DNA of 35,179 nt. Origin: a virus. Under the pieces are notes generated by a model. The model was not told the origin of the DNA and searched no databases. It saw only the letters and a program-made list of their open reading frames with translations. Location of the stretch: positions 1-35,179 of the IMG/VR virus record IMGVR_UViG_3300006754_000062; one strand, 5' to 3'. The position numbers and the translations under genes are program-made. Below are positions 8,172 through 31,106 of the stretch, piece after piece (within the stretch, counting starts at the first letter, position 1; each line of letters begins with the position of its first letter).

Positions 8172-9175
8172 TATTCTTCACTTTGTGTTTCGTTCATATC
8201 TTGTGTAGCTCCAAACTTATATATCTCTACTTCTCTAATTGACATTCCTGAGTATTGAAGTATAAGAGATATTAGATCTACCTGATTATCTTCAGGCACT
8301 TCAAAGTCTTGATAGTCAGGAGCACTTGCATTAAAGATTGGAGTTGATGCCACTAAGTTATATGTCCATTTAGGAGTTTTAGGATAACGTATATATTGAC
8401 AAATAACATCACCCTTTTTATTTATAGTTGATGGATATACGGTTGCTGTCTCTGACACCCCTTCGCTTAATACATAAGCAGGATAGGTTCTAGTAGGAGC
8501 AGTAAGCTGAGAACTTGTTAGATTAAATATTTTATATTGACTAACTTTTTCTACCTCAACTATATTGTTGGCATCATATATTCTATAGTCCTGCCCCACA
8601 TAAGGAATAGCACCTGTAGACATAATATCCGCACTCAAACTTAATTCAGACACTGAGTCTACTGCAGTAACATAAGCGGTTAGCATAGGGTCTGTAGGAG
8701 CTCCTATTGGACTTGTATTAACAACAATACTTCCCACCGGTGGAGACTCAGGAATACCCGGAGCGGTTATCACAAACTGATTTAACGTAGTATCTACAAG
8801 TTTGCCCGCAACTTCTGCGGTAGTTGTACCACTGTATAGCAACGTAGGATAGAAATATAATTTATTAACAAAGTAATAATCAAGAGGTAGATTGTAAAGG
8901 TTAGCTGTATTAGTAGTAGAGGCAGGTTGATCCAAAACCTGTGTCTTAGCAAAGATAGCTATATCTTGCTCTATGCCACTTTTTATATCAGCATACCCTA
9001 TCCCTGACTGCCTCATATTTTCTTTATTTATTTGATGATTATAAGAATAAAAGAAATCTTCAAATATAGAAAGTTGTGCTTGCGTAGCAAACAAGTTAAA
9101 GTCAGCAGGTGTTACATATCCATAATTATTTTTATTTAATACAGAGAGGACTGTACTATACACTTCATCAATCAT
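8171..9175 (-). CDS. Tail connector/ring protein candidate (334 aa)
   Basis: A protein of 334 residues. The N-terminus is helical (MIDEVYSTVLSVLNKNNYGY). The segment YVTPADFNLFATQAQLSIFE is a pattern I associate with small head-tail connector proteins of Bacteroidetes phages. Residues ~122-201 form an inserted beta module: KLVD, VGSIVVN, YVTAVDS, LSLSADI, YRIYD. It is shared with the giant tail protein and the 167-residue protein at 27300..27803. The gene has its own TATCTTTG promoter box only 4 nt before the ATG, so its message may be leaderless. It is the first gene of the tail block. The connector role is inferred from order and size. Confidence 0.75.
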   Translation of the reverse strand: MIDEVYSTVLSVLNKNNYGYVTPADFNLFATQAQLSIFEDFFYSYNHQINKENMRQSGIGYADIKSGIEQDIAIFAKTQVLDQPASTTNTANLYNLPLDYYFVNKLYFYPTLLYSGTTTAEVAGKLVDTTLNQFVITAPGIPESPPVGSIVVNTSPIGAPTDPMLTAYVTAVDSVSELSLSADIMSTGAIPYVGQDYRIYDANNIVEVEKVSQYKIFNLTSSQLTAPTRTYPAYVLSEGVSETATVYPSTINKKGDVICQYIRYPKTPKWTYNLVASTPIFNASAPDYQDFEVPEDNQVDLISLILQYSGMSIREVEIYKFGATQDMNETQSEE

Positions 9176-15902: not shown

Positions 15903-18365
15903 CTACCTCGGTTCAAACTCTGACATATCAAATCCGTCTAAGCTATCCTCATTTGACTCAAACATCTTTGCTGTAGTTGTTTGTTCAAAATTTTCAGGAG
16001 GTAGGTTATTTTTTCTTTGACTTATGAGTTTACTCTGCTGAGTGTTCTGTTGGTTTATTCTTTCCGCTTTAGCAAATTCTCTTTGATCTTCTCTCTGCTG
16101 TAATGCTCTCTCCGATGTGTCTCTTAATTGCATGTTATAACCAAACTCTTTATCCATAAGTTGAGACTTTAACATAGCCTCCTGTTTCATCTTCTCTATT
16201 TCAAAAGCAATCTCTGCTTGCTTTATTTTCATCTTCGATTGAGTTTCTGCTTCCATCTTTTGCATTGCCGCTTGTGCAGCCATCTGCTGACTCTGTTGGT
16301 TTATCTGAGCTTGAGCTTGCATCTTCATCATTTCCTGTTGCTCATCCTTTTCTTCTTTCTTTCTTCTTTTAAGTTTTAAAAGCTGATTGGCAAGTTTTAA
16401 ATTTCTAACCTCTCGTATATCAATAGCATCTTCTAAATTAATATCTTGTTTAGATAAAGCCATTTGTATGTTTTGTTCCAACTGAGCTTTCTCTTCTTCA
16501 TCAGGAGACACGTCAATAAAAATACCGAAGTCATATAGGTATAAATCTTTTGTGTCATTTAATATTGAAACATTATATTTTCCTATTTGATTTACAAAAT
16601 TTTCTTTAAAGTCAGAATACTCTAATATGTCCCCTACCCTATAAGACAATGCTTCTGCTAGACTTCTGTAGATAAATAAACTTCCATCTAATATATGCCT
16701 AGTCGCAGTATTAGAATTTAATGCAGCTAACTTCTGAATACCAACTAAAGAATTAGGATCAGGCGTGCTACCGTCTCTCGCTTCATTTAAGCCGGTTACA
16801 GCCCTAATCATGTTAAGATAATGATTATAGTTACCAATTAACATTTGCGTTTTGCTAGCTCCTGAATTAGAGGTTAGCTGAGTAATTGGAACTTTACCTT
16901 GGTTATAGTCTCCATCTTGAGTATAGCTTCTACCTATCACACTACCTGTTTGAAAATATAATCTCAACGCATCTTCGGGATTGTAAGCATTTCCTGTTCC
17001 TAGGTCTACTTCATTTAATCCGTCTGCATCAATAAACACACCGTCCGGTACAACTCGTGATATAACTTGTTGAAGTTTTAAATGAGTAATCTGAATTAAG
17101 TCAGCAAAAGGAATCATTCGTCTTACCAATGACTCAATAACACCCTTATACATTCTAGGAGCAACAGCAATATAATTAGGAATAGCATATTGATTAGCCG
17201 ACTTAGGTCTTACCATATTCTCTTCCAACTCCCACTTTAAAATAATATTAGTTCCCATAACCATTACGCCGGTATACCACACGTCAATAGTTTTTTCTAC
17301 CTTCTCAAAATTCCCTTCTTCCATCATTTCTTCAGGTGGATCGAATTGATCATCTTTCTCTATCATTTTTTCATTACCATTCTCATTAACCTTCTTCTTA
17401 TAAACAAACTTCTTTGTTGTTTTATAATTAAAATACATAACGGTAGCTGTATCTCTATAGAACATAGAGTCTTGATACATTTGGGCTGTATTAAAATAGT
17501 CATACCAACTTTGACTGTATTGAGATATTTCTTTTAAATCCTCGTTAGTTAGAGTTGGGTCTATTTTCTTTAGCTCAATAATGGGTAATGTCTTTATTTC
17601 ACCCCAATAAAAACAATCTTTAAAGTGTGGGTCTTCAGTGTAACTATATACCACATTAGCAGGATCAACATATTCTACGTTTACCCCGTCTCCTAATTGA
17701 AAGTTATGTTTAGCTACAGCAATTCCCAATACTGTTAAGTCATAATCAAATCTCTTTCTTAGGTCTACATATTTATTATTATCTAATAAAGTGTTAATAG
17801 CCTCCTCTTGAGCTATCTCAATAGCGGGCTTATAGTTAAGTTGCATATATAAGGATAGCTCTTCATCTGAAGCAGGAAGCTCGTTAGGATCCATAGAGTA
17901 AGGGTTAACACCCCCCCTCTTTTGTATAATATCAAGAACAGGTTTCGCAACCATCTGTCCCTCTATCATTCTTTGATAGGTGCTTCGCTTAGATTGAGAA
18001 ATAGCATCTTGAGCATAAGCATCTACTTTAAATAATCTATCAGACATTCCATTAACTACAATGTCAACAAACTTAGGAAGTATAGGAACAGGGGTCCAAT
18101 CTAAATTAAGATAAGATAAGTCTCCATCAATAGCTAATTCGTTTTTGTATTTACCTATTGATTGCTCTCCACGAGCATATAATCTTAACCTATTATATTC
18201 TCCCCATTGATTATAGAATCTACAGCTATTACTGTCTTTGCGAAACCATTCGTATTGTATAGCCTGACCTATTTGAAGCCCAAACTCATCAGTAGCTTTT
18301 TCTGCATCTGAAACAAATTGACTTGGAAACCCTGAGGCTTGTATGTTTATTTTTATATCTTTCAT
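15903..18365 (-). CDS. Portal protein (crAss-like type, 820 aa)
   Basis: A protein of 820 residues whose ATG overlaps the TerL stop (ATGA). The N-terminal half has a helical start and DGDLSYLNLDWTPVPILPKF, typical of the large portal proteins of crAss-like phages. The centre contains EYVDPANVVYSYTEDPHFKD and the long stem-like helix around VRRMIPFADLIQITHLKLQQ. Residues ~670-790 are Gln-rich and charged coiled coil (QQEMMKMQAQAQINQQSQQM), matching the long C-terminal barrel/crown of podovirus portals. It lies between TerL and scaffold. Length and order fit the family well. Confidence 0.9.
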   Translation of the reverse strand: MKDIKINIQASGFPSQFVSDAEKATDEFGLQIGQAIQYEWFRKDSNSCRFYNQWGEYNRLRLYARGEQSIGKYKNELAIDGDLSYLNLDWTPVPILPKFVDIVVNGMSDRLFKVDAYAQDAISQSKRSTYQRMIEGQMVAKPVLDIIQKRGGVNPYSMDPNELPASDEELSLYMQLNYKPAIEIAQEEAINTLLDNNKYVDLRKRFDYDLTVLGIAVAKHNFQLGDGVNVEYVDPANVVYSYTEDPHFKDCFYWGEIKTLPIIELKKIDPTLTNEDLKEISQYSQSWYDYFNTAQMYQDSMFYRDTATVMYFNYKTTKKFVYKKKVNENGNEKMIEKDDQFDPPEEMMEEGNFEKVEKTIDVWYTGVMVMGTNIILKWELEENMVRPKSANQYAIPNYIAVAPRMYKGVIESLVRRMIPFADLIQITHLKLQQVISRVVPDGVFIDADGLNEVDLGTGNAYNPEDALRLYFQTGSVIGRSYTQDGDYNQGKVPITQLTSNSGASKTQMLIGNYNHYLNMIRAVTGLNEARDGSTPDPNSLVGIQKLAALNSNTATRHILDGSLFIYRSLAEALSYRVGDILEYSDFKENFVNQIGKYNVSILNDTKDLYLYDFGIFIDVSPDEEEKAQLEQNIQMALSKQDINLEDAIDIREVRNLKLANQLLKLKRRKKEEKDEQQEMMKMQAQAQINQQSQQMAAQAAMQKMEAETQSKMKIKQAEIAFEIEKMKQEAMLKSQLMDKEFGYNMQLRDTSERALQQREDQREFAKAERINQQNTQQSKLISQRKNNLPPENFEQTTTAKMFESNEDSLDGFDMSEFEPR

Positions 18366-20566
18366 CGTATTAATGTACTTAATCTCCCTGTATTAGTATA
18401 CCTTGCAAAGTTAACACTTATTTTTGATTGTTTCTTTTGAGGTGAATAGAGGTGACGTTGAATGGCCATGATAGCTAATCCCGAGCTAATAGTTGCGTCA
18501 TGTCTAGTTCTACTTGTTATGTCAAATCTTGCCCAATCTTCTAAAGTTTTAGAAAACAACATCATACCCATTTCATCAGAAGGTCGGTACGTAGATTCAA
18601 GATCTAGCCCTACATGCTTTTCAATATAAGACTCTACTGCTGCCGCATGTGCTTGCTTTATATCTTCTGAAGTATTTGGTATACCTCCTAATTCTTTTTC
18701 TGACTTAGAAAGTTTTGCTCTATGTTTGTCCGGCCTGTTCATCGAGAAACCTCTATACCCCCTATTCTTTAAATGATAAAGTAATCTAGGTTTATTATTC
18801 TCAACTAGAATGGGCATTCCATAAAACACACAGGCCATTAATACTTCCTCAAAAAATATCTCTGCCGTTTGAGGTCGTGCAATATATTCTAAAAAGAACT
18901 GATTGCTTGGAGCTTCTTCCATACTAAATGTAGTCAATCCATGTAGAGCTCCGTTTGAACCACCCCCACCTACTGTTCCTGATATATCATAAGAGTCACA
19001 ACCAAACGCACCTATGTGGTCATTTCCCGGAAATTTCATTCCGTTTCTTTCTATAACATTATTCTGTAAATGTTTAGGAGGACTCCAACTAATTAAAAAC
19101 CTTCCCCTTTTATTCGGTGTCCATATAACTTTACTATCTTTAATTCCATTAGCCCACGAAAAAGAACCTCGTGTTAAAAAATGTTCAGGGATTAAAGAAT
19201 CATTATAATCTATTTGTTGATATATCTTAGTTAAATTAAATAAAGATGATTTACTCTCATCTCTAAATGCATGAGACTCTGTTCTTGGAAACTGTCGATA
19301 AAATTCATTCAGAGCATCAGCATCATTTTTTAACGAATCAACCTCTGCTTCCCAATAATCAATAGCTCCATTACGTATCCATTCACCATCAACTCCTTTT
19401 ACTTTTTCCTGTGGCTTACGAAATACAGGCTGTCCATAGACATCTATAAACCCTTCCATATTATACTCCATAGGAATAAATAAAGAATACAATCCACTTT
19501 TAGTTTGTCCATTTGCATTTCGTGAAGACAAACTAGAATCTTCAAATAGTTTCTTGAAATTTTCCCCACCTTTACTTAGTGCATTAGAGGTAGAACCCAT
19601 CATACATTTACCAATAATCTTACTACCTAATCGTAAACAGGTCTTGGTTACTCTCCAATTATTTAAGATGTTATTAGGCTTTATCCATTTACCACTTTCA
19701 TCGTGAACTAACAATAATAATTTCTCCCCATCATAAGAGTTATCGTCAGTGTTCTTCCAATCAATAGTAGTATCTAAACCTAATAGCTCATCATTGGTTG
19801 TGTCATACATATTCTTCTTAGTAATCTTAGCCGCCGGAACTCTAAAGGCTAATTCAGTTTTAGGTTTATCCATCCCATCTTGGATAGGTTTGAAAAAGAA
19901 TGGTAATCGATTTGATATAGGAACAACCTTGTCTGTAAACATTTTCTTTGCATCTGATCCGGTCTTAGATAATACCCCCACTCTTGAATCTTTTGCTAAT
20001 GTTCCAATATTAACACACTCTGAAGAACCCATATAAGAAAATCCTGAACGTCTAATTTTTAAATAAGTCATTCCAAAACATCTTGAGTCCGCCTTACACG
20101 CTTCCCAAAATAAAAAGAATATTCTATTAGCCTCACGATAATCAGGATACCCTACATCAATACTTGTCCATTGAAGATACATATAATGAGCCCCTGTTAT
20201 ATAGGTAGTAACTCCTTTATTAATAAACCATTCCCCGTACTCTCTTTTATCAAACTCTCCCTCAATATAATCTACCCACCTATTCTTAAAAGCAGAGTCC
20301 ATTGTGTTCCATTGAAAGATAGAGTTGATTTTAGAAAGCTGTTTAGGTAGCTCGTGACGTTGCCAATATTGTTTATCTTTAGGAGTTTTCTTTTTAGGCT
20401 TAATATACAAGGGAAGACCTATTCTTAATCCTGAGACATCTATAATATCTCCAACCTTTCCTGACTTAGAGATATTAACGAAGTCATACTTTTCATTATA
20501 CCCATACTTCCATGAAGAAGCTTTATTCTTTCGTGATAAAACTCCCTTGGGAATATAATCTTGCAT
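18362..20566 (-). CDS. terL: Terminase large subunit (packaging ATPase-nuclease)
   Basis: A protein of 734 residues from the ATG at 20566 (MQDYIPKGVLSRKNK). A longer frame begins with TTG at 20644 but lies inside the upstream gene, so I reject it. The ATPase half has a deviant Walker A around residues 172-177 (RRSGFS), Walker B at ~283-290 (LLLLVHDE, with D289 E290) and a coupling motif GSTSN at ~324-328. The nuclease half has an RNase H-like acidic set: D524 in GAFGCDSYD, E589 in PILVENN, and D690 in RTRHDATIS. It couples ATP hydrolysis to DNA translocation at the portal. The long form and motif variants are those of crAss-like TerL. Confidence 0.93.
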   Translation of the reverse strand: MQDYIPKGVLSRKNKASSWKYGYNEKYDFVNISKSGKVGDIIDVSGLRIGLPLYIKPKKKTPKDKQYWQRHELPKQLSKINSIFQWNTMDSAFKNRWVDYIEGEFDKREYGEWFINKGVTTYITGAHYMYLQWTSIDVGYPDYREANRIFFLFWEACKADSRCFGMTYLKIRRSGFSYMGSSECVNIGTLAKDSRVGVLSKTGSDAKKMFTDKVVPISNRLPFFFKPIQDGMDKPKTELAFRVPAAKITKKNMYDTTNDELLGLDTTIDWKNTDDNSYDGEKLLLLVHDESGKWIKPNNILNNWRVTKTCLRLGSKIIGKCMMGSTSNALSKGGENFKKLFEDSSLSSRNANGQTKSGLYSLFIPMEYNMEGFIDVYGQPVFRKPQEKVKGVDGEWIRNGAIDYWEAEVDSLKNDADALNEFYRQFPRTESHAFRDESKSSLFNLTKIYQQIDYNDSLIPEHFLTRGSFSWANGIKDSKVIWTPNKRGRFLISWSPPKHLQNNVIERNGMKFPGNDHIGAFGCDSYDISGTVGGGGSNGALHGLTTFSMEEAPSNQFFLEYIARPQTAEIFFEEVLMACVFYGMPILVENNKPRLLYHLKNRGYRGFSMNRPDKHRAKLSKSEKELGGIPNTSEDIKQAHAAAVESYIEKHVGLDLESTYRPSDEMGMMLFSKTLEDWARFDITSRTRHDATISSGLAIMAIQRHLYSPQKKQSKISVNFARYTNTGRLSTLIR

Positions 20567-20579
20567 AAGAGTATATAAT

Positions 20580-20861
20580 TTATTTTGATCTTCTTTCCGC
20601 AAATCCTTGTTTTGTTTGTGTTTTATCTGCACCCTTGCTTGCAATCTCTAAGCTCTCTTCTTCAGAATCTATTCTATTTAATATTTCAAAAGCATCAAAG
20701 ATGGCTAGCTTTTTAGTCGCCGCAGCATTTTTTAATCTATCCGCAGCCAACTCATCTTCAGGGTCAGGTTTTATAATTTCTTCTTTAGCAACTTTAATTA
20801 ATTGTCTAACCGCTTTCCTTCCGGCTTTTATAATTTCTAATTTTATTTCTTTTGAATCCAT
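20580..20861 (-). CDS. Small helical protein before TerL (terminase small-subunit candidate)
   Basis: A protein of 93 residues from the ATG at 20861 (MDSKEIKLEIIKAGRKAVRQ). The upstream extension reads into the neighbouring gene and is rejected. The sequence is all-helical and charged, with ADRLKNAAATKKLAIFDAFE and a following acidic run DSEEESLE. It ends 13 nt before TerL. A short helical DNA-binding or oligomerising protein here is the natural candidate for the terminase small subunit. I see no clear helix-turn-helix, so the call rests on position. Confidence 0.6.
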   Translation of the reverse strand: MDSKEIKLEIIKAGRKAVRQLIKVAKEEIIKPDPEDELAADRLKNAAATKKLAIFDAFEILNRIDSEEESLEIASKGADKTQTKQGFAERRSK

Positions 20862-20874
20862 ATTGTTTTTAATT

Positions 20875-21441
20875 TTATAGAACCACCGGTATTTGATGGT
20901 CATATATTCTATACAACAACTCTCCATCTACCTTAAATTCATATTCCATATTAGGATTAAACATAACTCTATCACCTTTCTTTACTCCTTGTTTTTTTAA
21001 ATACTCATTAGGGTATTTCATCTCACCTACCAATGGCTCAAACCTAACATTCTTATGAAAATGATAATCCTGTTTAGTAGGAATGGGTTTAATAAAACAA
21101 TACCTATCATAAGGTTTCCATTCACCGTCTTGCTTATAAAGAAAGAATTGTTCGCCATCAATTAAAAAGGTGTTCTCTCTAAAGAAACTCCTTCCACTTT
21201 TCTGTCTACCATACATATCATTATAATATTTAAAAACATTATGATGAACCAATAAAGTATCCCCCTTCTTTATAGGACCTTTATACCTCAGGGGAGTTTC
21301 AATTACTATAGCTTCCCTATTAGAAAACTTATGGTCTTCTTCCGAAGAGCTTACTAAAAACTCAACACCTCCTATATTTTTTTTATTAGCATACCGTTGA
21401 TTCCCTACCGGTTGTACTAAAAAGTCTGTTGGTGATTTCAT
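20875..21441 (-). CDS. Tandem GroES-like protein (two fused cpn10-type barrels)
   Basis: A protein of 188 residues. Residues 1-108 align by eye to a GroES barrel: strand FLVQPVG, a loop ending in IGGVEFLV (compare GGIVL of GroES mobile loops), REAIVIETP, then KKGDTLLVHHNVFKY, then FLIDGEQFFLYKQD. Residues ~109-188 repeat the pattern without a mobile loop: DRYCFIKPI, VKKGDRVMFNPNMEYEFKVD, then GELLYRIYDHQIPVVL, which mirrors the end of GroES. It overlaps the neighbouring 73-residue gene by 4 nt (ATGA) and lies just upstream of the terminase genes. A co-chaperonin or assembly role is inferred. The tandem fold is a pattern judgement and would be settled by structure prediction. Confidence 0.7.
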   Translation of the reverse strand: MKSPTDFLVQPVGNQRYANKKNIGGVEFLVSSSEEDHKFSNREAIVIETPLRYKGPIKKGDTLLVHHNVFKYYNDMYGRQKSGRSFFRENTFLIDGEQFFLYKQDGEWKPYDRYCFIKPIPTKQDYHFHKNVRFEPLVGEMKYPNEYLKKQGVKKGDRVMFNPNMEYEFKVDGELLYRIYDHQIPVVL

Positions 21442-21659
21442 TCAAAATATATATTATATTCTACCGAGATAGGCATAGTGTCTGTGAACTCTTTCCACAA
21501 TACAACCTCTCCCTTTTTTTCTATCCAAATACGAATTGACCCACCTTCATTTTTAATTAGGTGTATGTTGTGTGAGCCGTTCAACACCTCTTGCCCTACA
21601 ATGTAGTGCATTGCCCCTGACTTATAATCAGGTCCTACTGAAATTTTTCTTATATCCAT
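21438..21659 (-). CDS. Conserved small phage protein (73 aa)
   Basis: A protein of 73 residues. It begins MDIRKISVGPDYKSGAMHYI and continues VGQEVLNGSHNIHLIK, an all-beta pattern I recognise as a recurring small protein in marine phages, usually located near terminase or fibre genes. No enzyme motif or membrane segment. It overlaps the tandem GroES-like gene by 4 nt, so the two are probably translated together. Function unknown. Confidence 0.7.
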   Translation of the reverse strand: MDIRKISVGPDYKSGAMHYIVGQEVLNGSHNIHLIKNEGGSIRIWIEKKGEVVLWKEFTDTMPISVEYNIYFE

Positions 21660-21661
21660 TT

Positions 21662-22279
21662 TTATAAAATATTATTTATCATATACATTAATTCTATTTC
21701 CCAATACCCTTCTCCTACTATCCATCCCGGGTTTGAACCTACATTAGGATGAAGAGCAATATTATTAAAAAAGTTGTTTTGAGATTGAGTAGTGTAGTTA
21801 TAGCTTGACCCGCCGGTTCGTGCTAATCGGGTTACTTGAGTTGTAGTGCTAGTAAACTCATTTTGAGTCATTGGAGGAAAAAATGGGTTTGTAGAAAATG
21901 CTGCTGCCGTAGGATAATATCCACTTAGACTTAACTCTTCCGCCGCACCCACCACAAAAGGATTAGCAGGATTAGTGACTACATTTTTAAACGTGTTCAT
22001 CCATCGGGCCATTACAGTATACCATTCTTGCACTCCCAACATGGGAAGTAAGAAAATAGGATTACCATAAGAAGAAGCTAATATCTGAGCCTCACTAATA
22101 ATAAATTTCTCTATCTTCCAAGGACAAATAGCTTTGCATTGCAAATCTCCCAACCGTATGTTTTTAGTTTTGCGACTTCCTCCATCGGAACTTATCAGCT
22201 TATCATCTTTTATTAAAACCTCTTGCCTTTCGGCAAGCATACTAATATGTATCTCATCATTCTTATGTAGAGTAGTCAT
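21662..22279 (-). CDS. Fibre-like virion protein Y2
   Basis: A protein of 205 residues, second Y-type member of the duplicated X-Y cassette. The N-terminal ~45 residues (HISMLAERQEVLIKDDKLI, then KTKNIRLGDL) follow the anchor pattern of the whole group: short Ser/Ile strand, DxLIGTD-like turn, TKNF-like strand. The rest is beta-rich and aromatic, with VVTNPANPFVVGAAEELSLS and a closing GWIVGEGYWEIELMY that is almost the same in Y1. It is probably a short virion fibre or appendage subunit with a shared virion-binding N-terminus and a variable outer part. That role is inference. Confidence 0.7.
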   Translation of the reverse strand: MTTLHKNDEIHISMLAERQEVLIKDDKLISSDGGSRKTKNIRLGDLQCKAICPWKIEKFIISEAQILASSYGNPIFLLPMLGVQEWYTVMARWMNTFKNVVTNPANPFVVGAAEELSLSGYYPTAAAFSTNPFFPPMTQNEFTSTTTQVTRLARTGGSSYNYTTQSQNNFFNNIALHPNVGSNPGWIVGEGYWEIELMYMINNIL

Positions 22280-22281
22280 CC

Positions 22282-22884
22282 TTAGAAGCTAAATAGTTGA
22301 TAGGTAAATTGAAATTTCATTGGCATAGTTCCTTGAACAGAATCACTTCCTGCAGGCAACACTCCCATTAACATAGCTTTATTAGCATCGGCAAGGCTGC
22401 CTGTAATTTGTCCTGTCGCCGGACAAGCAAAACTCTGAGTACAAAAACTTCTACCATCATAAAAAAATACAGGGACCATTGCATAAAGTTCTAGGCCGCT
22501 CATCCAAGGAGTTGCTCCCACCATTCCTGTTCCATCGTCAAGACCTATTACAAGCTCACTTAACCCCCCATAAGTATATTGAGTTGGAGGAGCTAAATTC
22601 GGATTCAGTTGCCCGTAGCTAGATATCGTAATTTGTAAAGGAATAATAACCACATTATTTCCTTGGGCAGGAAGTAGCACTAAAGGTTTTGTTTTTATAT
22701 TTCTAAGAATAGTAGGGTCATCAATATAGTGTTCTATATATCTCCATCCCCACACATAACTAAATACATCTTCTACTTTAAAGTTCTTAGTTAAATTAGG
22801 AGGTGAAGAATTTGCTTCAGTCCCCACCAATAGCTCATCACCTGTGATATTGGTATCTATATTGTATGTACTTATTTTTGCCAT
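22282..22884 (-). CDS. Fibre-like virion protein X2
   Basis: A protein of 200 residues, second X-type member. It starts MAKISTYNIDTNITGDELLV and continues NLTKNFKVEDV, the anchor pattern. The middle (TKPLVLLPAQGNNVVIIPLQ) corresponds to the X1 segment TTPFQLVPAPGLNKVVSAL, and the ends match (MPMKFQFTYQLFSF against RPVKVMLQYQILDF). The outer part has an insertion with three Cys not found in X1. It lies 1-2 nt from its neighbours on both sides. Confidence 0.7.
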   Translation of the reverse strand: MAKISTYNIDTNITGDELLVGTEANSSPPNLTKNFKVEDVFSYVWGWRYIEHYIDDPTILRNIKTKPLVLLPAQGNNVVIIPLQITISSYGQLNPNLAPPTQYTYGGLSELVIGLDDGTGMVGATPWMSGLELYAMVPVFFYDGRSFCTQSFACPATGQITGSLADANKAMLMGVLPAGSDSVQGTMPMKFQFTYQLFSF

Positions 22885-22885
22885 A

Positions 22886-23518
22886 TTATACTAACATTTC
22901 GCTTTCTCTATACATTAATTCAACTTGCCAATAACCATCTCCTGCTATCCATCCCGGAGCTCCTACTATATGCGGCCCTAAAGCAATAGCAGTTGATTGA
23001 CTCGTAGGGAGAGCATCATCCCATTGAGTAAAGGTGGTTATCTGTGACACTCCAAACGGATCCCACCTCACCATCTGAGTGGTAGGGTTCGTTATTTCAC
23101 TTTGGGTTAAGTCTTTAAAGGGTGCATTATTCCACCAACCCCCGGCCATTAAATTCCAATATCCTAGTTTTAAATCATCTCCTGCGCCACACACAAAAGG
23201 GTTGGCAGGATCAGTAACAACATTAATAAACATATTAGCAAATATAGGACTAAACTCATAAAACTTATTCAAGCCTAACGATGGCAATAAGATAACCGGA
23301 CTAGCAATACTCGTTGCTAAAACTTGCCCTTTTGAAATAGTAAACTTTCCTATCTTCCATGGATTTAAAGCATACTCTCTCAAATCTCGAGGAAAAAAAT
23401 TCTTTGTCTTTAAAGTATCCTCATCTGTTCCTATCAATTTATCAAATGCCACCACTTCCTCCGTAAGAGTAGCAAGCATGCTAATATGGACCTTTTCATC
23501 TTCATGCGTAGTTGTCAT
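22886..23518 (-). CDS. Fibre-like virion protein Y1
   Basis: A protein of 210 residues, first Y-type member. Anchor: KVHISMLATLTEEVVAFDKL, IGTD, KTKNF. Then a Trp/Phe-rich beta body (KIGKFTISKGQVLATSIASP, VTDPANPFVCGAGDDLKLG) and a C-terminal GWIAGDGYWQVELMY. Its start overlaps the X1 stop by 4 nt. The body also resembles the X type in the segment LLPSLGLNKFYEF (X1: LVPAPGLNKVVSAL), so X and Y are probably old paralogues of one fold. Confidence 0.7.
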   Translation of the reverse strand: MTTTHEDEKVHISMLATLTEEVVAFDKLIGTDEDTLKTKNFFPRDLREYALNPWKIGKFTISKGQVLATSIASPVILLPSLGLNKFYEFSPIFANMFINVVTDPANPFVCGAGDDLKLGYWNLMAGGWWNNAPFKDLTQSEITNPTTQMVRWDPFGVSQITTFTQWDDALPTSQSTAIALGPHIVGAPGWIAGDGYWQVELMYRESEMLV

Positions 23519-24069
23519 ACTCCAAAGTCTAAGATTTGATACTGCAACATTACCTTTACCGGACGAGTCCCTTTAGTAGCATCTACCCCCCCAAACGCAC
23601 CAAACTGAAAGGGTAAATTATACTGAGAGGAATTATAAAGAAAAGCAGGAACACATCCTGTAGGATAATAACCATAACTCTGTCTAGTTGCTGCATTTAA
23701 AGGACCAAGACTATTTACCCAAAGAGTGCTATATACTCCACCGCCTCCATCAAGACCTGCCTGAATATTTGAACTTCCAAAATCATAATCATCCCCACCC
23801 CCTGTGCTCACCGACATAAATAAAGCACTAACAACTTTATTTAAACCGGGTGCAGGAACTAATTGAAATGGGGTTGTTGCAAGAGCACGAATAACAGCAA
23901 CATCTGTTATAACATACTCTACAGTCTGATACCCATTCATATAATCTACAAGCTTATCTACAGAAAAGTTTTTAGTTAAATTAGGTAGGGTAGAATTACT
24001 GTCCGTCCCTACCAACAAATCATCTCCATGGATATTGTTGTCTATATTATATGTGCTAATCTTGGCCAT
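23515..24069 (-). CDS. Fibre-like virion protein X1
   Basis: A protein of 184 residues, first X-type member. It starts MAKISTYNIDNNIHGDDLLV and continues NLTKNFSVDKL. The body is Gly/Ser/Tyr-rich (SVSTGGGDDYDFGSSNIQAG), and it closes with TRPVKVMLQYQILDFGV. The same first 10 residues recur in X2. It lies 1 nt after the mini-fibre gene. It is probably a short surface appendage subunit; this is inferred from the shared anchor and beta-rich body. Confidence 0.7.
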   Translation of the reverse strand: MAKISTYNIDNNIHGDDLLVGTDSNSTLPNLTKNFSVDKLVDYMNGYQTVEYVITDVAVIRALATTPFQLVPAPGLNKVVSALFMSVSTGGGDDYDFGSSNIQAGLDGGGGVYSTLWVNSLGPLNAATRQSYGYYPTGCVPAFLYNSSQYNLPFQFGAFGGVDATKGTRPVKVMLQYQILDFGV

Positions 24070-24070
24070 C

Positions 24071-24322
24071 CTAGAATGTTGATGTAGCCACTCTCCTCCA
24101 TGTATTGGTTGCTATACAGATATACAAATAATTTACATCCGCCGCAATCTGCCCTTTTATTCCCGGGTCGCTATCAGAAGCAGGAACAGTTCCTGCATTT
24201 ATTAATTCTGCAATCTTATCGAAAACAAAACTCTTAGTTGCAAAACCATCCTCTACATCTGTTCCAACAACATAGTCTGTCATTGTTGGATCAACGGCGG
24301 TATATGTACTTATTTTAGGCAT
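24071..24322 (-). CDS. Mini-fibre protein, anchor plus tip motif (83 aa)
   Basis: A protein of 83 residues. The N-terminus MPKISTYTAVDPTMTDYVVG, TD, ATKSFVFDKIAELI is the anchor of the X/Y proteins. The C-terminus GIKGQIAADVNYLYICIATN followed by TWRRVATSTF is a motif I know from the ends of many phage fibre-type proteins. The protein is therefore little more than a virion anchor joined to a tip segment, and may be the minimal ancestor or a deleted relative of X and Y. Its start lies 8 nt inside the preceding coiled-coil gene. Confidence 0.75.
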   Translation of the reverse strand: MPKISTYTAVDPTMTDYVVGTDVEDGFATKSFVFDKIAELINAGTVPASDSDPGIKGQIAADVNYLYICIATNTWRRVATSTF

Positions 24323-26068: not shown

Positions 26069-27115
26069 TTATAATATTAAAAAGTTAATACCTGCGTTTA
26101 CTGATTGTTGGATTCTATTAAAATAGTTTAAATAACTTACTTCTGAATAAACAGATAATGACCGTGTTAATTTATAATTAAAAATTAATCCATAATCATA
26201 ATCATGAGTTGTAGTAGAATAATTACTTAACTCATAGTTTTTAAAGAAGTAATTTATGTATGCTAAGATAAACAATTTATCCCAATGTTTATAATAAGAT
26301 ATTCCCATCACATTAGCGAGACTGTTTTGATTACCTTGCTCTGATACCCAATCTTGATTGTAGTCTGCAACTAGTTGACTATAATGGTTTTGAAAAACTG
26401 CAGAAGAGTTAGTTATAGTATCCCCCGCTTCATTTGTCCATATTGTAATAGCCTGCTCCCATCTGTCAAAATATCCGTTATTATTTCCATCAATCCAACT
26501 AGATTCATAGCTATACCCTAATTGAGATGATACATCTCGAAAGTCATTATAATTAGGGAAGTCGATTTTAAAAGCATTAATACCATATACCGGATGATTT
26601 CGCAATACCACTCCTAAAGTTAATCGTAGATTTTTAAAATCTTTTTTTACTCTTAAGTCAAGGGAATTATATTTTAAATCAACGTAACCATTTTGTGAAG
26701 ACTGAATCTTACTTACATAATGCTCTCCCACTCTCCTTAACCACATATCTCTATTCACATACTCTGTGCCCCTGTCTTTTATTTTCTCATACTGAAACAA
26801 ATACTCAAAACCCCCTAGTGGAGATCGATGCATAGACGCATTCTTTTCTATGCCGTCATAATAAAACTTAGGTTTTTTCTCAAACTTATACCGGCTTATC
26901 TTCTTTACTCCAATGTGATACCTATAGTTAGCACCAAACTGATTGGTAGTTTCTATAAGGTTACCATTAGAATACTCATAAGTCTCTATGGGTTGCATGG
27001 TAGAATTTAAACTAACCCCACCATATACAGTAGCATACTTATATATTTGGGCAGTAGATATATTGCTTACAAAAAAAAGCACTACCATGAGTGCTTTAAT
27101 TATTAATTTATTCAT
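26069..27115 (-). CDS. Phage-encoded outer-membrane beta-barrel candidate
   Basis: A protein of 348 residues. A signal peptide (residues 1-23, VVLFFVSNISTAQ) has the TAQ-type end common in Bacteroidetes. The mature part is rich in Tyr/Asn/Ser with alternating hydrophobic strands, such as LRLTLGVVLR, KLFILAYINYFF, YDYGLIFNYKL and SVNAGINFLIL at the very end, as in outer-membrane barrels. Residues 209-220 (DGNNNGYFDRWE) fit a 12-residue EF-hand-type calcium loop exactly. Its start overlaps the stop of the 42-residue basic gene. Possible roles are superinfection exclusion, receptor masking or outer-membrane destabilisation at lysis; none is proven by the sequence. Confidence 0.75.
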   Translation of the reverse strand: MNKLIIKALMVVLFFVSNISTAQIYKYATVYGGVSLNSTMQPIETYEYSNGNLIETTNQFGANYRYHIGVKKISRYKFEKKPKFYYDGIEKNASMHRSPLGGFEYLFQYEKIKDRGTEYVNRDMWLRRVGEHYVSKIQSSQNGYVDLKYNSLDLRVKKDFKNLRLTLGVVLRNHPVYGINAFKIDFPNYNDFRDVSSQLGYSYESSWIDGNNNGYFDRWEQAITIWTNEAGDTITNSSAVFQNHYSQLVADYNQDWVSEQGNQNSLANVMGISYYKHWDKLFILAYINYFFKNYELSNYSTTTHDYDYGLIFNYKLTRSLSVYSEVSYLNYFNRIQQSVNAGINFLIL

Positions 27116-27299: not shown

Positions 27300-27803
27300 T
27301 TAAGCAAAGGTAGCTGTTCCTTCTAATCCCGCCGGATTTCCTGTTCTAGGAATACGGACCGCTTGAACCGGAGCTGACTCTCCAATTGACAGAGAATAAG
27401 TTACTATATCACCACCTGCAGTTTCAATTATAATCTGTTGCGCACCTCCGAGTATAGGACCTGTGTCCGGGGCATTAAATGTAAATAAAAACGGACGTAG
27501 CTGTGATATTCTAAATACTCTATAGTCGTTACCAAGAACGAAGATGTTATCTGTAAGAGATAAGGTGGTGTCACCATCCACTGCCGTTACATCTGTTATT
27601 TGACTAGTTGTGTCGTTATAAACAATATCCCCTACAGCGATATTGTACTGAGTGAATCTTGCCCCTATATCTATTAATTTAGTAGGGGCCGCAGCGGTTG
27701 TTGTTCCACCATGAACCAAAGAGGCCGGGTTAGGAGTAGGGCGGTCATCGTCAGCAATAACAGCTATAGCCCTTGATCCTTGAAAGTTTGATAGTGTTGT
27801 CAT
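27300..27803 (-). CDS. Virion-like protein with shared beta module (167 aa)
   Basis: A protein of 167 residues. Residues ~42-99 are the same small beta module found in the giant tail protein and the 334-residue connector: KLIDIGARF, VGDIVYND, ITDVTAVD, TTLSLTDNIF, GNDYRVF. The N-terminus (SNFQGSRAIAVIADDDRPTP) and C-terminus (VQAVRIPRTGNPAGLEGTAT) are short extended segments. It has no membrane helix and no catalytic motif. It sits among tiny proteins, away from the capsid genes, and starts by ATGA overlap with the 55-residue gene. Probably a minor virion or decoration protein. Confidence 0.65.
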   Translation of the reverse strand: MTTLSNFQGSRAIAVIADDDRPTPNPASLVHGGTTTAAAPTKLIDIGARFTQYNIAVGDIVYNDTTSQITDVTAVDGDTTLSLTDNIFVLGNDYRVFRISQLRPFLFTFNAPDTGPILGGAQQIIIETAGGDIVTYSLSIGESAPVQAVRIPRTGNPAGLEGTATFA

Positions 27804-28844: not shown

Positions 28845-29276
28845 ATGAATCGAGATTACCTAAAGTATTGGAGGGTTATTAGTTATTTTATAAAATCAAA
28901 ATACAACCTCAAACAAGCTGAACTAGATACACTTTTATTTTTAAATTCAGAATCATATTTCTCTAAAGAAAAGTTTAAAGAGTTTAACGAGCTTCTTAGT
29001 TGGAACAAAAGAAGATTTGATATTCTCCTTAGAGATGGATGGATAGAAGTGTTTAGAAAAAGATCAGGCGTACATAAAACTTTATATCAACTGTCTTATA
29101 AATCACAAAGAGTTTTAAAATCTATCTACGATAAACTAGAAGGAACAGAGATTCCCGATAGCCAACACAATCCTATGTTCCATAGGAACGTCTCATATAC
29201 TGATAAGGTATATAGGAATATGATAAAAGAAATGAATAAAACTATAAGACAACAACGACATTCTTCTCAAGAATAA
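28845..29276 (+). CDS. Winged-helix (MarR-like) regulator candidate
   Basis: A protein of 143 residues from the ATG at 28845 (MNRDYLKYWRVISYFIKSKY). The longer frame begins upstream with a hydrophobic, AT-rich stretch that I treat as untranslated. The layout is winged-helix: KYNLKQAELDTLLFLNSE, FSKEKFKEFNELLSWNKRRF as the recognition region, then the wing DGWIEVFRKRSG with HKTLYQLSYKSQRV, and a C-terminal NVSYTDKVYRNMIKEMNKTI. This is a pattern I recall as conserved in phages of marine flavobacteria. It is the only plus-strand gene inside the minus-strand block, divergent from the tiny basic genes and convergent with groES, whose 3' end it overlaps by 35 nt. Probably a transcription switch. 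Confidence 0.75.
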   Translation: MNRDYLKYWRVISYFIKSKYNLKQAELDTLLFLNSESYFSKEKFKEFNELLSWNKRRFDILLRDGWIEVFRKRSGVHKTLYQLSYKSQRVLKSIYDKLEGTEIPDSQHNPMFHRNVSYTDKVYRNMIKEMNKTIRQQRHSSQE

Positions 29277-29499
29277 TAGTATACTGCTCGTTATTTATCA
29301 TAACAGTATTCCCTGAGCCTTTATCATAGTATATAATATCATCAGTCTTTATAACCTCAACATCATTACCCGGTTTTATAACTTTACCTTTCTGATATCT
29401 GAATCCGCTTACATCTTCTTTAGATAATAACAACCCACCTTTGGTGGTTACTTGTTCTTCTATCTTATTAATTATAATATATTTTCCTATTGCTTTCAT
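29242..29499 (-). CDS. groES: Phage GroES co-chaperonin, roof loop missing
   Basis: A protein of 85 residues, shorter than the usual ~95-97. N-terminal strand MKAIGKYIIINKIEE; mobile loop at ~14-30 with the hydrophobic GroEL-binding tripeptide in KGGLLLSKE; then YQKGKVIKPGNDVEVIKTDD. The ~10-residue roof hairpin found between these strands in bacterial GroES is absent. The barrel closes with IIYYDKGSG, TVMINNEQYTIILEKN and a hydrophobic end VVVVL. It caps the GroEL ring during folding. The ATG overlaps the groEL stop by 4 nt, and groES is downstream of groEL, the reverse of the usual bacterial order. It is the likely partner of the adjacent phage GroEL. Confidence 0.9.
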   Translation of the reverse strand: MKAIGKYIIINKIEEQVTTKGGLLLSKEDVSGFRYQKGKVIKPGNDVEVIKTDDIIYYDKGSGNTVMINNEQYTIILEKNVVVVL

Positions 29500-31106
29500 T
29501 CTGTGTCGTATGAACGTGCCATAGTTACAATGGCATCAGTGCTTAATATAGTTACAGCTACAGAGACAGCATTTTGTAATGCACTCTTAGTAACTTTCAT
29601 AGGGTCAATAACACCCATCTTAATAAGGTCTCCGTATTTCTCAGACTTAATATCATACCCATAACCCGATTCCATTCCTGTATTATATATCTTACATGGA
29701 TTCAGTCCGGCATTATGAAGTATTTGATTAAGAGGAGCTGTCATTGCTTTAGATAAAATTGCGGAAGCAATTTTTTGCGAAAGAGTTTTCCCTTTTGTCA
29801 TCACTCCATTATTGGCAACCTCCTGTAATGCTAACCCTGAGCCGGGTAATATACCTTCGGTAAGTGCTGAACGAACTGCACACACAGCATCATCAACCCT
29901 GTCATACAACTCTTTTTGTTCTAGGTCAGTATTCCCTCCCACATATATAACACCCACACCACCGGTAAGTGAAGCGATACGTGACATGATAAACTCTCTC
30001 TCAGTTTTATTATTAGATAGCTTATGCGATCCCCATAGCTCTTCTACTCTTTTATTAATCTCCTCAGTGTTCTCTCTTTCGGACGAGAGGATGATACTAG
30101 AGTCTCGCCCAACTATCACCTTGGCCGCTCTCCCTAAGTCGGAGAAGTTTATAACACTCAAATCATCCCCTGTCTTTTCTGAGAAGTAGGTTGCTCCTAC
30201 TGACAATGCTATATCTTGCATTAACTCATGTTGCTTGTATCCAAAGTTAGGTGGCTGTATAACACATATCTTTAAATTCCTTTTCATCACATTAGCCGCT
30301 AATGTGTTTAATACATTATTAGCACAAGGAGAAATAATAAATAAAGACTTGTTGTCAGATATAATTGGTTTTAGAATCTCCTCGATGTTTAAGATATTAT
30401 TTATCTCAGCATCACAAACAAGAATATAAGGATTATCTAAAATACACTCATCTTTCTTTTGGTTATTAATAAACAAAGGATTTGAATAACCCCTATCAAC
30501 CTTTATACCATCGGTACTCTCATAATAAGTCTCAGTACCTTGGGCTTTCTCGACAGTAACAATACCATTCTTACCTACCTCATTGTAGATTTTAGATATG
30601 ATGTCACCAATAACAGGATCATTATTGGCTGAGATAGTAGCTACACTTTTTAATTTTGATTTGGTTACAGGCTTACTCTTCTTCTTTAACTCCCTAACAA
30701 CCTCATTGGTAATATTAACTAACTCTCTTAAAACCTCAGTCTTATTATGCTTAGGATTTTTTTCAAACATCTCCATAGCACACTTAACAATAGCCTCAGT
30801 TAATACAATCGCTGTCGTTGTTCCATCACCCGCAGTAGTAGCGGTTCTATCCGCCGCCTCTTTCATCATCCTAACCGCAAGGTTTTCCACAGGGTCCATC
30901 AAGTCAATAGACTTAGCCACAGTAACACCGTCTTTAGTTACTGTTAAACTATGTGTATGATGAGGTGATTCTATAAGGACCGTATTTCCACTCGGACCAA
31001 GGGTGCTCTTTACAGCAGTAGATATTTTATTTATTCCCCTTATTAATTTATCCCTTCCTTCTTTTCCAAAGTTTAACTCCTTTGGTGAGTATCCTGTTTG
31101 ATTCAT
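29496..31106 (-). CDS. groEL: Phage chaperonin GroEL
   Basis: A full-length protein of 536 residues (E. coli 548). Equatorial ATP site: STLGPSGNTVL at ~34-44, KDG with D59 (as D52), AGDGTTTA with D94 (as D87), and RVDDAV with D406 (as D398), so all catalytic acids are present. The usual GGG after ~residue 420 is GSG (ILPGSGLAL). The apical domain is complete (DRGYSNPLFINNQK, NILNIEEILKPII, then ANVMKRNLKICVIQPPNFGY). The C-terminus ends MARSYDTE with no GGM repeats. A TTTG-N20-TATATTTG promoter lies in front. Predicted to fold phage or host proteins under ATP control, probably including the capsid protein. Confidence 0.95.
   Translation of the reverse strand: MNQTGYSPKELNFGKEGRDKLIRGINKISTAVKSTLGPSGNTVLIESPHHTHSLTVTKDGVTVAKSIDLMDPVENLAVRMMKEAADRTATTAGDGTTTAIVLTEAIVKCAMEMFEKNPKHNKTEVLRELVNITNEVVRELKKKSKPVTKSKLKSVATISANNDPVIGDIISKIYNEVGKNGIVTVEKAQGTETYYESTDGIKVDRGYSNPLFINNQKKDECILDNPYILVCDAEINNILNIEEILKPIISDNKSLFIISPCANNVLNTLAANVMKRNLKICVIQPPNFGYKQHELMQDIALSVGATYFSEKTGDDLSVINFSDLGRAAKVIVGRDSSIILSSERENTEEINKRVEELWGSHKLSNNKTEREFIMSRIASLTGGVGVIYVGGNTDLEQKELYDRVDDAVCAVRSALTEGILPGSGLALQEVANNGVMTKGKTLSQKIASAILSKAMTAPLNQILHNAGLNPCKIYNTGMESGYGYDIKSEKYGDLIKMGVIDPMKVTKSALQNAVSVAVTILSTDAIVTMARSYDTE

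Follow-up and report, generated by a model that had tools for sequence, protein, structure and literature searches.

Proteins that pair a conserved N-terminal anchor with an exchangeable tip are already known, as are loci that encode several receptor-binding proteins, from the accounts of Klebsiella phages and the Ackermannviridae (PMC8262889; PMC11414711). Klebsiella phage receptor-binding proteins are N-terminally anchored and modular, with a conserved N-terminal structural module and a variable C-terminal specificity module, and the proteins described here are like them in this respect (PMC8262889). The Klebsiella proteins are depolymerases (PMC8262889), however, whereas those described here are mostly stand-alone proteins of ~200 amino acids (aa), arranged in tandem as A-B-A-B together with a mini protein, and the two are likened by architecture. 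In the Ackermannviridae a branched tail-spike complex is encoded by a locus with several receptor-binding proteins, for which gene duplication has been suggested as the origin, and the spikes bind each other via Gp10-like XD domains (PMC11414711). Pfam and PHROG scans of our A and B proteins found no such domain at E ≤ 0.1, although remote homology could escape these scans. Some Ackermannviridae phages keep a spike without a receptor-binding domain, which is comparable to the mini protein of our locus (PMC11414711). The head fibres gp21 and gp29 and the tail fibre gp22 of PhicrAss001 likewise combine short N-terminal docking peptides (residues 1-38, 1-58, and 1-26) with outer parts, and form two fibre types for two pockets (PMC10172136), but they gave no sequence match to our anchor. 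In the literature searched, mostly below full text, we found neither the present anchor family, nor a five-gene array of small proteins, nor a natural exchange of a full fibre for a mini.

The window, the whole 35,179-base stretch analysed here, is the metagenomic IMG/VR record IMGVR_UViG_3300006754_000062. Relatives of its portal and terminase are found in Elemovirus, in Cellulophaga phages (Callevirus among them), and in Maribacter phage Panino, and its nearest named record is MW202828 (74% in the terminase large subunit, TerL). The host of Elemovirus is Flavobacterium sp. BAL314, and Calle is podovirus-like by electron microscopy (PMC8776804). Five minus-strand open reading frames (ORFs), arranged head to tail, occupy 21662-24322 in the transcript order Z, A1, B1, A2, and B2, where A stands for the KISTY and B for the HISML type of anchor. 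Z (24071..24322; 83 aa) is a mini-fibre in which the anchor (residues 1-38) is followed by a 40-aa hairpin-like end (YLYICIATNTWRRV). A1 (23515..24069; 184 aa), an anchor with a predicted beta-sandwich tip, and B1 (22886..23518; 210 aa), a longer anchor with a beta-rich tip, are the conserved copies. The second copies, A2 (22282..22884; 200 aa) and B2 (21662..22279; 205 aa), have variable tips, and the anchor of B2 is the weakest. The genes occupy a slot between the lysis module and the terminase: holin and M15 peptidase genes precede an 86-aa gene, L86 (24315..24575), at the left slot edge, and the five genes are followed by a 73-aa gene, R74 (21438..21659), at the right edge, an adjoining gene for a 188-aa GroES-like protein (20875..21441; phrog_13932, E 1.9e-23), and TerL (18362..20644; phrog_6681, E 7e-176). 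The two edge genes, the GroES-like gene, and TerL are on the minus strand. The stretch 29242-31106 carries a GroEL gene (phrog_5725) and, next to it in the position of a GroES, an 85-aa gene; the GroES-like 188-aa protein by the terminase is a separate one. Elsewhere, a 348-aa protein (26069-27115) has, by eye, a signal-peptide-like start and a barrel-like end and no PHROG match, and a 167-aa protein (27300-27803) has a weak tail fibre PHROG match (E 0.02).

The original prediction, made from the DNA letters and their translations, was that these five consecutive genes share an N-terminal anchor, and this is what we find: a conserved anchor of ~41 residues, or 50 in the B type, is common to proteins whose outer parts differ. 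A test profile of 88 anchors from other contigs, with the window, its close relatives, and B-type rows excluded, recovered A1 (66.7 bits), A2 (61.7), Z (44.4), B1 (25.0), and B2 (17.9), and none of the remaining window ORFs up to E = 10. A shuffle control covering four of the genes (all but A2) gave 0 of 2000 shuffles at the observed score for each of Z, A1, B1, and B2, the best shuffle reaching 13.3 bits. The B anchors are clearly more distant than the A anchors from the broad anchor family, and B2 is the most decayed, with ISSD replacing GTD and TKNI replacing TKNF. Nonetheless, the broad anchor profile matched the B anchors in a profile-profile comparison with a probability of 96.7% (E 4e-10), a comparison of the kind on which the prediction had staked itself; a direct A-versus-B comparison, with just 6 and 7 rows from this phage group, gave a weaker 37% (E 3.5e-4), and this narrow form of the check would by itself have left the shared anchor in doubt. 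The proposed X1-Y1-X2-Y2 order corresponds to A1-B1-A2-B2, with 40% identity between A1 and A2 and 44% between B1 and B2. The fifth gene had been described as an anchor plus a known fibre-end motif, and the end of Z indeed matches a tail protein family, phrog_17312 (E 1.2e-10, profile positions 753-792 of 792). A1, B1, A2, and B2 hit no Pfam or PHROG family at E ≤ 0.1. A tblastn search with A1 and B1 yielded no match in 50,697 phage records, and no relatives were found when bacterial and archaeal genome contigs were scanned with the A family. When PDB sequences were searched with Z and with the profiles of A, B, and the anchor, nothing was accepted as real; lectin matches to the A profile (E 0.03) were not accepted and designed beta-trefoil matches to Z (E 5e-4) were judged to be chance.

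The slot was surveyed in relatives with TerL as the reference gene and L86 and R74 as markers, taking the best 80 of 599 loci; 11 of these were without the right marker and 19 without the left flank gene, and 50 cover the slot. Anchored genes are present in 26 of the covered slots and absent from 24. One anchored gene is found in 24 of the occupied slots, two in L129, and three in L014, and the smallest product is 83 aa long, the largest 1542 aa. In 7 of the 26 the sole anchored gene is a mini of 83-92 aa (L096, L133, L142, L145, L147, L155, and L158). In L106, L112, and L115 the slot is empty, with the two markers 3 nt apart. Since an anchored gene is missing from 24 of the 50 covered slots, three of which have nothing between the markers, the slot is not essential across the wider group. 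Among named phages, MW202828 has one 648-aa protein with the same anchor at the slot, Calle has two anchored genes there, and Elemovirus has gp37 (157 aa, E 1e-18) and gp36 (398 aa, E 5e-18). Anchored genes are also found in Cellulophaga phage phi38:1 (gp087, named ‘putative tail protein', E 4e-12; gp085, E 3e-6) and in Maribacter phage Panino (CDS94 only, E 2e-7). Elemovirus and phi38:1 resemble the window in having the same anchor profile at the same place by the GroES-like gene and TerL, but they have two genes rather than A-B pairs, and the phi38:1 tips are far longer than those of the window. At the slot, the cultured Elemovirus records (68, all from one host) share no less than 99% identity and so offer practically no variation to relate to host range. 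Upstream of M15, sister-group contigs have as many as three fibre-like genes with another N-terminal piece (MATTKI...LPSGTTAxRPxSPxxGExRYNTT...W). This piece occurs in 15 loci, 7 of them also with KIS anchors; loci with it include L094, L101, L102, L109, L110, L121, L135, and L166. The idea that this second anchor type equals the hairpin at the Z end was rejected (hhalign probability 1%).

The A-B doubling is old. A1 and A2 group as one clade (97/94) in a 16-protein tree, as do B1 and B2 (100/98), with long branches outside the two clades. Contig L004 carries its own orthologues of B1, A2, and B2, and the doubling is therefore older than the split from L004, which rules out a recent duplication. 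A single Z-A-B set is found in L014, L015, and L016, and in L014 it lies at the same slot. One old event from A-B to A-B-A-B fits both the tree and the L014 set, and we can only infer the ancestral gene order because the A and B of L014 have diverged strongly and their branches are long. It had been proposed that this system adds receptor-binding proteins by cassette duplication; this one event bears out part of the proposal, but duplication is not the main mode, with a single anchored gene in nearly all occupied slots and diversity that lies mainly in replaced tips. The longest run of anchored ORFs is five and is confined to this phage group among 119 loci with an anchored ORF, several of which are the same contig or the window itself.

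Comparisons of DNA between contigs show that the outer part is exchanged between related phages. L124 and L125 are 90-100% identical upstream and over the anchor, 35-58% in the tip, and 87-100% in the downstream genes. L162 and L158 are mostly 83-100% identical in the flanks and 92-100% in the anchor, yet the former has a 205-aa fibre and the latter an 85-aa mini. Together with the recovery of all five genes by the anchor profile, these two swaps, in which the tips are unrelated, support the predicted retention of a common docking piece behind differing outer parts. The third case is that of A2 and B2 in the window and contig L005, which are 91-100% identical over Z, A1, B1, and the A2 anchor and 97-99% beyond B2, against 62-78% in the A2 and B2 tips, with the B2 anchor in between (88-92%); divergence inside the cassette is limited to these two tips. 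At the protein level A1 is 97% identical, while the A2 tip is at 63% against 98% for its anchor and the B2 tip at 65% against 92% for its first 50 residues. Fourfold sites differ at 38 of 85 positions in the two tips after residue 50, against 22 of 260 in the 73-aa gene and the remainder of the cassette (Fisher p 1.2e-12); a TerL stretch differs at 32 of 151. Because silent sites also changed, import of tip DNA by recombination is likelier than amino-acid selection alone, and the A2 and B2 tips were probably acquired in this way. These three are the clearest examples: among 108 contig pairs whose anchors agree at 34 or more of 40 positions, tip identity was below 30% in 2, 30-60% in 12, 60-90% in 35, and above 90% in 59; as these identities are mostly high, most pairs are simply close relatives. 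L005 also encodes a 161-aa protein (325-810) with an IPxGTKFxGVDP start like that of the Elemovirus tail fibre gp53, for which no counterpart was found in the window ORF list, and a frame change at 8638-9160 splits its GroES-like gene into two overlapping ORFs, perhaps through an assembly error.

Overall, the five genes probably fill the virion-fibre slot of a short-tailed (podovirus-like) Bacteroidetes-type phage. The anchor would plug into a common docking site on the particle, most likely the tail fibre hub, the exposed beta-sandwich tip would meet the host cell surface and bind receptors, and the products would be trimeric fibres. Attachment to the tail rather than the capsid is likely in our estimation and is favoured because the same anchor occurs in longer, tail-fibre-like proteins. 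In the phi38:1 protein gp085 an S74 endosialidase chaperone scores above the Pfam cut-off and there are matches to tail-fibre PHROGs, and gp087 has a tail PHROG match. Directly after the anchor of gp085 (L170 4785-7715), residues 49-72 show a weak match to Fibritin_C (foldon; E 5e-4), below the Pfam cut-off. Across 99 non-redundant anchored proteins 48 PHROGs were matched, and the 25 of these listed include tail fibre, tail spike, tail, minor tail, and virion structural names for a few members; an HNH endonuclease name was given to 2 of the 99 among the matches listed. Pfam found YadA_head in 3, S74 in 1, BppL_N in 1, and three other families in 1 each, and the majority of the 99 had unnamed families only, or none among the matches listed. 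Alternatively, the proteins could be capsid decorations or head fibres, with the anchor in a capsid pocket and a jelly-roll tip on the head, like cement trimers or the PhicrAss001 head fibres. AlphaFold monomers of A2 (pLDDT 66.2, pTM 0.62, 11 rows) and B1 (pLDDT 62.6, pTM 0.63, 8 rows) show, at low confidence, a beta-sandwich tip, and the solved folds nearest to both are capsid cement chains: the top four VIA-align matches of B1 are phage capsid/cement chains (8h89_J, Z 8.2; 7dou_4, 7.2; 7eel_H, 6.1; 7dn2_1, 6.0), all of which are within the top five for A2 (6.8, 6.3, 6.3, and 6.4, respectively). In addition, the 97-aa PhicrAss001 head fibre, which docks by residues 1-38 in a hexon pocket, and the 122-aa one (1-58) are near mini Z in size (PMC10172136). 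However, by VIA-align's own note Z values under about 8 are common for such models, and Foldseek gave no PDB match to either model at E ≤ 0.001. In a search of BFVD with the A2 model, 28 matches passed E ≤ 0.001, and almost all of them are phage proteins that are unnamed or uncharacterised. The anchor profile, moreover, recognised 0 of 9 crAss001 proteins tested, gp21, gp22, and gp29 among them (best E 0.03; gp21 absent at E ≤ 100, gp29 at E 6), and the long relatives with the same anchor resemble tail fibres. We therefore consider a head location unlikely. A correspondence between the Z hairpin end and the N-terminal docking part of crAss001 gp21 was rejected, with E 0.24 only.

A role outside the virion, such as one on the infected cell's surface, is a thought prompted by the adjoining lysis module and by a virion location that is itself deduced, but it is very improbable given that Pfam and PHROG scans of the five found no family of that kind, that no signal peptide was seen by eye, and that the anchored relatives are fibre-like. 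A point against the virion-fibre reading is that the anchored genes of Elemovirus and phi38:1 have no structural label in their records, though the portal has one. The variation of A2 and B2 could also be read as relaxed constraint on decaying duplicates rather than tip exchange, as the B2 anchor is the weakest and the A2 and B2 tips diverge fastest. Against this, the reading frames are unbroken in the window, L005, L002, L011, and L004, the tips have dN below dS (0.30/0.85 and 0.25/0.73), and silent-site divergence leaps just past the anchor, a pattern that lost constraint would not produce by itself; decay is thus a decidedly unlikely explanation.

If the genes do fill a virion-fibre slot, a constant anchor would let tips change without refitting the particle. 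A1-B1 would then be a constant pair and A2-B2 a fast-changing pair, a distinction drawn from one close comparison (two contigs with identical cassette proteins), and mini Z would be a stub occupying docking sites. A more elaborate and rather doubtful extension is a mixed fibre coat, in which the A and B anchors fit two docking sites, as in the crAss001 head fibres, so that A and B together make up the true unit, one that was duplicated whole; one pair would be held constant and the other re-tipped by recombination at the anchor border, with the mini as an interchangeable blank when no tip is wanted. The anchor and the slot edges together provide an easy marker for fibre tips in a large, mostly uncultured podovirus group related to flavobacterial phages. 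Natural tip swaps in this group break at the anchor end, and the exchange of a full fibre for a mini with the anchor retained suggests a design that includes a blank docking protein.
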